Assembly: GCA_902561795.1 (NCBI GenBank) | Contig: CACERG010000001.1 | Span: forward strand, 1 to 64,000 | DNA length: 64,000 nucleotides | Reading direction: 5' to 3' | DNA from: an uncultured Bacteroidota bacterium | GTDB lineage: Bacteria > Bacteroidota > Bacteroidia > Flavobacteriales > Flavobacteriaceae | Shown: piece by piece, positions 30,592 to 64,000 of the stretch | How positions within the stretch are numbered: position 1 is the first letter of the stretch | Layout of the letters: every line of letters begins with the position of its first letter | The notes under the pieces: model-generated | Told to the model about the DNA's origin: nothing | The model's database searches: none | Seen by the model: the letters and a program-made list of their open reading frames with translations, nothing else | Made by a program: the position numbers and the translations under genes

Positions 30592-30623
30592 TTTGAAAAC
30601 CATTAAAGTGGTAGTTATATTTG
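30592..30623 (+). promoter_or_regulatory. Bacteroidota-type promoter of the small leader unit
   Basis: TTTG at 30592-30595 and TATATTTG at 30616-30623, 20 bp apart, match the -33 TTTG / -7 TAnnTTTG promoter of the primary sigma factor in this phylum. A transcript would begin near 30630, just after the antiporter gene. This is the best promoter match I found in the window. Confidence 0.7.
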
Positions 30624-30669
30624 ATGTGAGTAGTTTATGCTGTGACAACAGTGATGTCTAACCAAATTT

Positions 30670-30680
30670 GAAAGGAGGTG
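30670..30680 (+). promoter_or_regulatory. Extended Shine-Dalgarno sequence, unusual for this phylum
   Basis: GAAAGGAGGTG is complementary over 11 nt to the conserved 3' end of 16S rRNA (CACCTCCTTTC), with the GGAGG core 5 nt before the ATG at 30684. Other genes in this window lack such a site, in line with the phylum, whose ribosomes normally hide the anti-Shine-Dalgarno. Confidence 0.8.
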
Positions 30681-30683
30681 TCT

Positions 30684-30746
30684 ATGTCTTATTATAATCA
30701 TTTAAGGAATTCGAGACAGCAGGTACCCAATTGCGGTCTGCTGTAG
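30684..30746 (+). CDS. Predicted 20-residue leader peptide or small protein
   Basis: ATG at 30684, TAG at 30744-30746. The peptide (start MSYYNHLRNS, end PNCGLL) is polar with one Cys and no run of a single amino acid that would suggest classical amino-acid attenuation. Support comes from the ideal Shine-Dalgarno spacing and from the hairpin overlapping its stop, not from homology. It may be a regulatory uORF whose translation sets the fate of the downstream terminator. Confidence 0.5.
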   Translation: MSYYNHLRNSRQQVPNCGLL

Positions 30747-30763
30747 CTTTCCTTATCTATTAC

Positions 30764-30792
30764 AAAAGCGGATCGATGGATCCGCTTTTTTT
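30764..30792 (+). terminator. Strong rho-independent terminator
   Basis: Perfect 11-bp stem AAAAGCGGATC / GATCCGCTTTT (30764-30774 with 30779-30789), loop GATG, T-run to 30792. It closes the small leader unit and lies immediately before the oxygenase ATG. Confidence 0.85.
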
Positions 30793-30798
30793 ATTGAA

Positions 30799-31749
30799 AT
30801 GAACAACATTCCTAAAGCAAACTTAGAAGATTTCACTTCTAAAAATTCAAAAACGAAAAAATTATTTGTCAAAAAAATTGGCATAGCATTTCAAGAAATT
30901 GGGTTTCTTGTCTTAAAAGGTCACTTCCTAAGCAGCTCACTTCAAGAAAATCTTTATAAGGAAATTCGTGATTTTTTTAATCTATCTGATGAAATCAAAT
31001 CATCATATGAAATTAAAGATGGAGGAAGTCAAAGAGGTTATACTGGATTTGGAAAAGAGAGTGCAGCTGGTAGGTCAGTTGGTGATTTAAAGGAGTTTTG
31101 GCATTTCGGTCAGGATTTAAATACAAAGAAATATCTCAAAAAAAAATACGCAGAAAATATAAAAGTTAAAGAATTAAAAAATTTTAATCACGTTGGCAAT
31201 TTAGCCTTTTTGGAATTAGAGAGAACTGCAAAATTAGTACTTCGAGCTTTAGCTATTTTTTTAAATCTAGACGAATTTTATTTTGACAAATTCGTTGATG
31301 GTGGAAATTCTATCTTAAGGGCAATACATTATCCTCCAATCAAAGAAAACCCAAAAGAAGCTGAACGGGCTGCAGCACACAGTGATATCAACTTGATTAC
31401 GTTATTAATGGGTGCTCAAGGTGGAGGTTTACAAGTTTTAAATCGAAAAAATCAGTGGATAGAAGCTGTTGCAGAAAAAGACGAATTGATAATTAATATT
31501 GGAGACATGCTCTCAAGATTAACAAATAATTTTTTCCCTTCTACTCTGCATCGAGTTGTAAATCCTCCAAAGAAATTTTGGGGTAGCTCCCGATATTCAG
31601 TCCCCTTTTTTATGCATCCAATACCAGAAATGCCATTGAACTGCTTACCTTATACTTCCAATAAGAAAAATTTAAAGAAATATGATGACATTTTAGCAGG
31701 CGAATTTTTAAACCAAAGATTAAAAGAACTAGGTTTAATCAAAAACTAG
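30799..31749 (+). CDS. 2-oxoglutarate/Fe(II)-dependent oxygenase, isopenicillin N synthase-like
   Basis: A 316-residue oxygenase of the IPNS-like family. The Fe(II) facial triad is visible as H194-x-D196 (AAHSDINLITLLMG) and H251 (STLHRVVNPP), and the 2-oxoglutarate-binding R265-x-S267 lies in SSRYSVPFF. The N-terminal DIOX_N part includes the IAFQEIGFLVLKGH segment. Relatives oxidise small molecules; the substrate is unknown. It starts 6 nt after a strong terminator, so expression probably needs read-through from the promoter at 30592 or an undetected one. I see nothing in the 142 bp after it. Confidence 0.9.
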   Translation: MNNIPKANLEDFTSKNSKTKKLFVKKIGIAFQEIGFLVLKGHFLSSSLQENLYKEIRDFFNLSDEIKSSYEIKDGGSQRGYTGFGKESAAGRSVGDLKEFWHFGQDLNTKKYLKKKYAENIKVKELKNFNHVGNLAFLELERTAKLVLRALAIFLNLDEFYFDKFVDGGNSILRAIHYPPIKENPKEAERAAAHSDINLITLLMGAQGGGLQVLNRKNQWIEAVAEKDELIINIGDMLSRLTNNFFPSTLHRVVNPPKKFWGSSRYSVPFFMHPIPEMPLNCLPYTSNKKNLKKYDDILAGEFLNQRLKELGLIKN

Positions 31750-31891: not shown

Positions 31892-33085
31892 TTAATAAAA
31901 AGTAGATTTCATTTCTTCATGTACACCCCTACCTAAAGCAGCTAAAAATGGGATTCCAATTTCGTCATATTCATAGATATCGTCGTTATAAATCATATTC
32001 TCATTAACTAAAATTGTTGCCGTGAGGAAGAATTCAATTTTATTTTTTTCATCTTTTATGTAGGCAACATCTGTTACCGTACCGTAAGCTTGCCCAACTT
32101 TATTAAATATTCTAATCTCAGGTATCATTGCGCCTTTTTTATCTCCATAAATAAAAAACTTACAATAACTATCCCAATGTTTTCCATCATTATAATTAGG
32201 ATCATTACTTTCTAATGTAGTTCTGCTCATCCAATGTCTTAAAAATTTATAATCCGCTTTAGTCAAATTGAAAAGTTCTTTTTCTGTAAAAGCTTCAGGG
32301 AAAATTATTCTTTTAAGAATACCCTCTAGGTTACGTATCGAAATTCTATTTTTTCTTTCAAAATTCATTGGTTCGAAGACAATGTTTTTGGACTTTATAT
32401 GTCCAATTCCCTTCAAATTACCCTCCAAATTATTTATTTTCAAATCAACCAAAGCACTTATGGAGGGCTGATGGTAAATAATTTTTTGATTTTCATTCAA
32501 AAAAGTAAATCCCCAAGTGTTAATATTATCTGCTCCAAAAAGAAATTTATGGTAAAGCCAAGTATTACTTAAACCTCTTTGAGCTAATTCTTTATTGATA
32601 TAGTCAGTACCTAAGAAATCGAAAAGATAATTATATGCATTATCGTCGCTAACTAAAAAAATCTTTTTTATTAGATGATTTATAGTTAGAATTCCTTTAA
32701 AATGAGTTGAATCCGTTTTAACCAAAATTTCCCCATTTTTGTCAGTTATAAAAAAAGGGGTGTCTCCAGAAATTTGAAGCCCATCTGATCTTAATTCATT
32801 TAATTTCTGAAGTGAAAGTATTGCTATTGGAAGTTTAGCTGTACTTGCAGGATAAAAATAACGGCCTTCATCAAGTTGAAATGTATTTTCTTTAAATGCA
32901 GCTTTACCGGAATCATCTCTTTTAATTTGAGTTAAAAGAATTTGTAGCTCGTGTTTTTCTTTATTTTTTAAGACTTTTTGTAACTCATCAATATTTTTGT
33001 TTAATACTTTATCTAAAACCGTAGGAGAAGTACTACAACTAATTATAAAAGAAATAGAAAAAACAATAATAAAATTTTTTATCAT
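31892..33085 (-). CDS. Beta-lactamase-like serine hydrolase, lipoprotein
   Basis: A 397-residue exported protein with a lipoprotein signal (FIISC, Cys17). The class A beta-lactamase fold motifs are S81-T-A-K84 (active-site SxxK), S146-D-D in place of the usual SDN, and K-V-G in FNKVGQAYGTV for the KTG box. Proteins of this Bacteroidota family are mostly not resistance enzymes; hydrolase activity on a cell-wall or small ester/amide substrate is possible. It is last in a minus-strand run with the nucleotidyltransferase, GHMP kinase and GH109-like genes (44 bp gap). Confidence 0.85.
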   Translation of the reverse strand: MIKNFIIVFSISFIISCSTSPTVLDKVLNKNIDELQKVLKNKEKHELQILLTQIKRDDSGKAAFKENTFQLDEGRYFYPASTAKLPIAILSLQKLNELRSDGLQISGDTPFFITDKNGEILVKTDSTHFKGILTINHLIKKIFLVSDDNAYNYLFDFLGTDYINKELAQRGLSNTWLYHKFLFGADNINTWGFTFLNENQKIIYHQPSISALVDLKINNLEGNLKGIGHIKSKNIVFEPMNFERKNRISIRNLEGILKRIIFPEAFTEKELFNLTKADYKFLRHWMSRTTLESNDPNYNDGKHWDSYCKFFIYGDKKGAMIPEIRIFNKVGQAYGTVTDVAYIKDEKNKIEFFLTATILVNENMIYNDDIYEYDEIGIPFLAALGRGVHEEMKSTFY

Positions 33086-63328: not shown

Positions 63329-64000
63329 TTATTGGAATCTTTTTACTGTATTGGTAGTATAAGATTGAATATAATCTACTTTTCCTCTAGAGGAAATATA
63401 CTCTTGGAAAGCTTTTGTTTTTTGAATTTTACGTAAGGTCACTTGAACATCATTTGGGCTTTTACCATATATGACTAGGCCATGAGTAGCCCCAGGGGTA
63501 CCTCCAACTTCATAGCTTACTAGTCCTATTCTTCTATCGCCAAGAATTTTTTCAGCTGCTTTTGCATTTTTATCCCATGCTTTTTTGAATTTAGCAGGTT
63601 CATAAACTTTAACATCATAAACTCTTGCCGAAAGATTTTTTTTCCAATCTCCTTCTGTAAAAGCTAATATTGATCCCATTGCATTATCGACTGTATTTGG
63701 ATACGTATAATTACTCATTCTCTCTCCATAAAGGGCCCATTCCTCGTCTGACCTTTTTCTTTCTGTTCCCCAATTTTCAGGATCGCCAAAGACCACTATT
63801 CTGTGTGTTACTCCGTTTTTAAATCCAACTGATTGAAGCATAACACCTCCTGATTTCCATTTTTCACCACCAGCAAAGTCAGAAAATGTTTCCACTACAC
63901 TTGATTCATAACCCCTTTTAACATTAAGGTTATAAATACGAAGTGACCCTTGAGCAATAAGGCTGAAACTAAATAGTAAAGCCAATAAAAAAATAGTTTT
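63329..64000 (-). CDS. Secreted protein of unknown function (start beyond window edge)
   Basis: The frame stays open to the end of the window and encodes a signal peptide there (KTIFLLALLFSFSLIAQG), so the start codon is just outside. The mature part, about 210 residues, has two internally similar halves (IYNLNVKRGYESSVV... and VYDVKVYEPAKFKKAWD...), the look of a duplicated ABM/dimeric-barrel-like fold. HRIVVFGDPENW and HGLVIYGKSP are the matching strands of each half. No family recognised with certainty. A terminator follows. Confidence 0.7.
   Translation of the reverse strand, partial: KTIFLLALLFSFSLIAQGSLRIYNLNVKRGYESSVVETFSDFAGGEKWKSGGVMLQSVGFKNGVTHRIVVFGDPENWGTERKRSDEEWALYGERMSNYTYPNTVDNAMGSILAFTEGDWKKNLSARVYDVKVYEPAKFKKAWDKNAKAAEKILGDRRIGLVSYEVGGTPGATHGLVIYGKSPNDVQVTLRKIQKTKAFQEYISSRGKVDYIQSYTTNTVKRFQ

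Follow-up and report, generated by a model that had tools for sequence, protein, structure and literature searches.

A free-standing predicted gene was identified in the window, the 64,000-nucleotide stretch of an uncultured Flavobacteriaceae contig that was analysed, and its RNA of about 160 nt probably acts, in a reading held with modest confidence, as a micro-mRNA combined with an RNA switch that is read out by ribosomes with an exposed 16S tail. The element carries no annotation here and is better described as an RNA gene standing on its own than as the leader of an oxygenase gene, and the mechanism proposed for it is plausible. According to parts of PMC9976891, the 16S tail is hidden by bS21, bS18 and bS6, reporters with a strong Shine-Dalgarno (SD) sequence gain translation upon bS21 loss or mutation, and rpsU, the gene for bS21, is an autoregulated extended-SD gene in Flavobacteriales, where genome scans described in the same parts limit SD-dependent control to rpsU. 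Scans of annotated genes would presumably overlook an unannotated 20-codon ORF. With a second conserved gene of the extended-SD kind that carries its own competitor of the tail, the question of specialised bS21-free ribosomes would become directly testable, with small-genome marine bacteria as the test ground, the element being found in ocean flavobacteria. Among the papers listed by literature searches, with preprints and most subscription journals outside their scope, none describes the element in its title or abstract beginning.

The element lies on the plus strand, downstream of riboflavin synthase and Na+/H+ exchanger genes, and every part named by the original prediction is present, as read directly from the sequence. 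The claimed TTTG-N20-TATATTTG promoter, of the Bacteroidota type, occupies 30592-30623, with the -33 box TTTG at 30592-30595, a 20 nt spacer and the -7 box TATATTTG at 30616-30623, which would place the transcription start near 30630 and the predicted transcript, about 160 nt long, between approximately 30630 and 30792. A 5' hairpin, GCUGU-GACA-ACAGU, with a GACA loop (30639-30652) precedes the extended SD GAAAGGAGGTGT (RNA GAAAGGAGGUGU) at 30670-30681. The 20-codon ORF MSYYNHLRNSRQQVPNCGLL with its stop codon spans 30684-30746, its ATG at 30684 being spaced 5 nt from GGAGG and 3 nt from GGAGGTG, and it contains the purine run UAAGGAA (30703-30709), an alternative partner of the anti-SD-like segment in the open state described below. 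The hairpin announced over the ORF end and stop codon is formed by 7-bp arms, ACAGCAG at 30716-30722 and CTGCTGT at 30738-30744. The predicted downstream segment able to pair with the SD core is likewise present, as a cis anti-SD-like pyrimidine segment TTTCCTTATCTA (RNA UUUCCUUAUCUA) at 30748-30759 that resembles the 16S 3' tail and whose pairing is widely kept. The 11-bp terminator stem follows at 30764-30789 with a GAUG loop and a T-run to 30792; the stem covaries, and a 6 nt gap separates the T-run from the ATG (30799) of the neighbouring DIOX_N / 2OG-Fe(II) oxygenase gene (30799-31749, plus strand, assigned by Pfam), outside the element. Folding of the window's own element, a single sequence, gave a z-score of -2.35, with 4 of 200 shuffles equally good. 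Adjoining the oxygenase, a Beta-lactamase2-fold serine hydrolase gene occupies 31892-33085 on the minus strand (Pfam E 2.3e-14), scoring 18.9 bits, far under the class A beta-lactamase cut-off of 200.

The comparison across flavobacterial genomes suggested by the original prediction confirmed that the observed parts are real. A DNA similarity search over 60 relatives matched 34, of which 33 belong to the genus and the last, from another genus, matched weakly and over a short stretch; 34 loci were taken from the 33 genus genomes, G019 contributing two pieces. AAGGAGG, an open 20- or 21-codon ORF, CTTATCTA and the terminator are kept in all 34 loci, and this conservation of the parts excludes a chance origin of the element. 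A TAnnTTTG -7 box is visible by eye in the 34-locus alignment (L021 is cut) and in most of the distant members inspected, L203 reading TAATTTTA. The first covariance model, R1, which includes the terminator, matches 34 of 38 genus genomes, among them all seven near-complete ones, the four missed genomes being 56-82% complete. R1 also produced matches in 20 other genomes among 395 of the order, which were rejected as terminators or as loci with nothing recognisable. Its replacement without the terminator, R2, matches 17 of 397 Flavobacteriaceae genomes from 9 of 237 genera, with one match each in assemblies of 1.3-2.2 Mb, and across the same 395 order genomes it recovered the window's own copy only; the filters were strict in both R2 scans and may have let distant copies slip by.

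Scanning GTDB contigs with the pattern GACAACAG-N17-27-GAAAGGAGGTG returned 100 stretches, of which 79 were scored as members by a script that demands TGTGACAACAG, 76 of them complete. One further member, L061, is cut at the contig start and falls outside the 79. Among the 21 script non-members, 10 of 16 are antisense 16S ends once L061, L142 and L149-L151 are set aside. Titles were listed for 80 of the 100 stretches, and those belonging to members name Flavobacteriaceae, Flavobacteriales, Flavobacteriia, Bacteroidetes, Arcticimaribacter, Crocinitomicaceae or Cryomorphaceae, mostly as MAGs. Two alignments were drawn up, A2 with 53 sequences, near-identical copies and copies with N being left out, and A3 with 36 of these 53; constancy of the hairpin loop and SD is built into both, because the search pattern required GACAACAG and GAAAGGAGGTG. 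Conservation of the SD rests on the 34 similarity-fetched loci and on the model-found copies, which vary, carrying GGACAACAG with AAAGGAGG (L202, L203), GAGAGGAGG (L197, L199) or GGAAG (L201). The 5' hairpin is paired in all A2 cells, though GACAACAG belonged to the A2 search pattern; independent support comes from compensatory changes, CUGC/GCAG in both L008 and L024 as well as GUUGU/ACAAC in L013, with one broken pair in L029. The suggested Rfam search (4227 families) brought no known RNA family to light, with no match above the gathering threshold in the window and only sub-threshold matches in other copies, the best at E 0.23, in L194, L202 and L188. Identity with the genome's 6S RNA was ruled out: 6S-Flavo (RF01685), found in 33 of 38 genus genomes, sits elsewhere (G000:C2).

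The 16S 3' end of the genome itself reads ...GGAACACCUCCUUUCUAGAG (L205); among the 38 genus genomes the 16S-end pattern TTGGATCACCTCC matched none and GCTGGAACACCTCC matched five. Against this tail the strong complementarity claimed for the SD holds, its length being 12 contiguous nt in the window copy rather than the 11 nt first given, and the match extends to 14 nt in relatives with UAGAAAGGAGGUGU, provided that the 16S tail includes the 3' A. Duplex energies, calculated on a tail including a 3' A that mature 16S may lack and with a program different from that of PMC9976891, are -21.9 kcal/mol for the window, -23.2 and -23.4 for two variants found in relatives, -17.6 for genus g166 and -21.0 for the SD of rpsU with the same tail. 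One passage of PMC9976891 gives an extended SD as 9-13 consecutive bp at less than -13 kcal/mol, and the element pairs over 12 nt at -21.9 kcal/mol. As background, the median SD duplex over the window's 55 ATG ORFs of 100 codons or more is -2.4 kcal/mol; the best of these, an SD-like match of -18.4 kcal/mol at 63841, was rejected, as it precedes an internal ATG of a longer ORF.

The motif GAAAGGAGG-N3-10-ATG occurs at 91 sites in the 38 genus genomes against 50 for a reversed control (hand sum). By spacer, 35 of the 91 are the element, in 34 genomes (by eye); 11 fetched sites were verified as rpsU, more share the rpsU spacer, and the remainder are scattered. The genome that holds the window is 81% complete and has no such site apart from the element. 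The comparison with rpsU, which the original prediction had invoked, stands: extended SDs recur at two places in the genus, the element and rpsU. The genus rpsU carries GAAAGGAGGT(G), and its leader is apparently short, as judged from the promoter position. The element does not itself encode bS21, its ORF having 20 codons and rpsU being a separate gene in the genus.

The ORF is kept in length across lineages. Among 82 copies counted as distinct sequences (L057 and L075, which contain N, and L074, which has no ATG, are outside the count), it has 19-21 codons in 81, namely 20 in 56, 21 in 23 and 19 in 2, with 25 in the remaining L063. The other two frames close early, at codon 6 in 63 of 82 copies and at codons 1-4 in 71 of 82, and gaps inside the ORF of the A2 alignment are multiples of three. 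For the two largest peptide clades pN/pS is 0.48 and 0.56, and for two smaller ones 0.79 and 0.70; in shifted frames seven of eight values are higher, with one lower (0.44, in a smaller clade). The 73 distinct peptides drift widely between lineages, with little in common beyond the first residues. The anti-SD-like core starts 2-9 nt past the stop codon in 76 of 77 distinct ORFs, and the segment, outside the ORF, ranks among the better-kept parts. Possibly decaying copies, or assembly errors, are seen in L074, without a start codon, and in L063, whose 25-codon frame has no stop; L201 may also be decaying, its SD core and terminator being altered, and L200 of the same genus keeps an intact copy.

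Two mutually exclusive folds are predicted for the RNA, both widely kept and near-equal in energy, with some controls not passed. The closed state was tested as the SD paired with the anti-SD-like segment, GGUGUC with GGUACC, UGUCU with AGACA, the hairpin and the terminator, and it forms standard pairs in 97.8% of A2 cells, compared with 41.0-52.5% when the partners are slid. Its covariation is mostly located in the terminator (A2, 53 sequences). The SD helix is paired in 97.2% of A2 cells with one compensatory cell, SD invariance limiting covariation there. For the two helices at the start codon, pairing reaches 95.3% and three pairs are double-changed (8 of 500 shuffles), but slid by -1 and +1 these helices show five, against three in register. 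The open-state helix between the anti-SD-like segment and the ORF purine run is 87.7% paired and has 18 double-change cells versus 5.1 in shuffles; its double-changed pairs are unremarkable (158 of 500 shuffles), a slide of -1 giving five versus four. Four pairs of the ORF-end hairpin were counted on A2, and they form in only 77.4% of cells.

In 67 of 81 copies the duplex of the SD with the segment beats mononucleotide shuffles (mean z -1.5, a modest value), as does that of the ORF with the segment in 74 of 81 (mean z -1.3), while the window's own copy has a weak SD:segment duplex (-6.7, z +0.4). Constrained folding of 81 copies, leaving out L063 and starting inside the 5' hairpin, gave a median closed-minus-open energy of 0.9 kcal/mol (range -16.1 to 7.6), with the folds within 5 kcal/mol of each other in 66 of 81 and the closed fold lower in 33 of 81; for the window's own copy the open fold is lower by 6 kcal/mol. 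The divergent L202 and L203 can form both folds with different letters, through AAUCAU/AUGAUU beside the SD and GGAAUG/CAUUCC in the ORF.

The original prediction offered two readings of the element, an attenuator governing read-through into the oxygenase and an independent small RNA that binds the 16S 3' end, and the genomic setting favours the latter. An attenuator would agree with the presence of the oxygenase at 37 of the 76 complete copies, but the gene was not found with the other 39 (tblastn, E <=1e-3, stretches of at most 8 kb), 35 of which have at least 1.5 kb of downstream sequence available; the genus member L034/L099 is also without it. The next gene is on the opposite strand in 17 of the 39 oxygenase-free copies. 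In 8 of the 76 complete copies the upstream gene is divergent and the downstream gene convergent, so the element stands alone there between two opposite-strand genes. Neighbours elsewhere include an esterase-like gene, an etfA-like gene and glycosyltransferases (by eye), and the promoter-like and terminator ends accompany the element while these neighbours change. Within the genus, the gap from the T-run to the oxygenase ATG is only 0 to about 18 nt and no promoter was seen in it by eye; this speaks for attenuation, and because no promoter fits in the gap, the oxygenase of the genus is possibly reached by read-through in addition. A candidate antiterminator, joining the 3' arm of the ORF hairpin to a terminator arm, is paired in 79.3% of cells versus 22.7-46.1% when slid, yet it is no better than shuffles (152 of 500), and in 13-14 of 32 sequences its middle pairs do not form. 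Since the linkage is not conserved and the tested antiterminator helix is not above shuffles, read-through control of the oxygenase is not the general function of the element, and a transcription attenuator is a very improbable account of it. In six loci (L079, L107, L112, L132, L133 and L136) the oxygenase ATG lies 54-73 nt past the terminator loop with a TAnnTTTA-like box between (by eye), perhaps an own oxygenase promoter, for which the window's genus has no room.

In the mechanism proposed for the micro-mRNA and switch, the closed fold would pair the anti-SD-like segment past the stop with the SD, and further helices would tie GGUGUC and UGUCU around the start codon to the ORF; in the open fold the segment would pair with the ORF purine run, leaving the SD free. 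Tail-exposed ribosomes, for example those lacking bS21, could pair with the SD over 12-14 nt and so go on to translate the 20-codon ORF; on reaching the stop codon, the ribosome would mask the anti-SD-like segment that follows it. Translation would report, and might be limited by, the pool of tail-exposed ribosomes. The sequences establish the gene, its conservation and its independence from its neighbours, the SD match and the two alternative pairings; from there we infer transcription and translation of the element, its dependence on bS21 and its output, the bS21 link in the model deriving from F. johnsoniae. The element may thereby serve as a sensor of ribosome state, and it would fit a second target of tail-exposed ribosomes, equipped in cis with a tail-like competitor. 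The element is also put forward tentatively, as a proposal with an appreciable but minority chance of being correct, as an RNA dedicated to sensing the exposed 16S 3' tail as its ligand: a bistable micro-mRNA with its own tail mimic competing for the SD and reading out bS21-free ribosomes. If this sensor reading is true, the element would add a further SD-dependent gene to a group in which only rpsU was held to be controlled in this way.

Two further explanations compete with a micro-mRNA that is also a switch. A trans-acting sRNA is unlikely: here the tail-like segment, freed by ORF translation, would pair with the extended SD of rpsU and tune bS21 synthesis, or the SD of the RNA would titrate free 16S tails, the peptide being incidental. 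Retention of the RNA parts while the peptide drifts through 73 distinct forms would agree with it, as would the near-identical SD on the apparently short leader of the genus rpsU and outgroup copies such as L076, which has CACUCCUUUCUAA against a 16S of CACCUCCUUUCUAG. Pairing of the segment with the rpsU SD, or with any SD, nevertheless follows automatically from the cis complementarity and is not independent evidence, and the kept ORF length also counts against the trans-acting reading. Somewhat less likely still is a plain micro-mRNA for a functional 20-residue peptide, with the SD providing strong translation only and the folds incidental. Such a peptide would account for the kept frame and length, for pN/pS below 1 in the four clades measured and for the kept ends: all 73 distinct peptides have S or F as residue 2, and 66 of the 73 finish with L or F. 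Against it stand the small common ground between the peptides of different lineages, the anti-SD-like segment that lies outside the ORF and is nonetheless among the better-kept parts, and the inhibition of SD recognition in the class that parts of PMC9976891 report.

Each known system resembles the element in part. Like rpsU, which occurs in the same genus, it has an extended SD against the 16S tail with an AUG a few nt downstream; unlike rpsU with its apparently short leader, it encodes no ribosomal protein and carries a cis anti-SD-like segment and a terminator. Erm-type leaders and FourU thermometers likewise have two folds, in one of which a cis anti-SD sequesters the SD, and erm-type leaders also contain a short ORF, whereas the element needs no downstream regulated gene and its proposed ligand is the ribosome's own 16S tail, which this class of bacteria is reported to hide. 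SgrS and rnTrpL are dual-function small RNAs with a small ORF, and the element is likened to them by description, as a short terminated predicted transcript with an ORF and a possible RNA function. Rfp18 of Flavobacterium psychrophilum is a conserved structured flavobacterial small RNA (PMC9723704), unlike the element in that, compared by description, the relevant part of that paper places it among transcripts typically without coding potential.

The GAUG terminator loop was considered as a special trait of the element and rejected, the same loop being seen in terminators of other genera. C-GATG-G or similar loops occur in other Flavobacteriales (L036, L038, L039, L050 and L052), and the loop may reflect a general preference, the examples having been found with a model favouring it; the other two script-found terminators of the window are without a GATG loop. 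Among viral contigs the pattern matched four times, three of the matches resembling ordinary SD-led genes and the fourth being L209.
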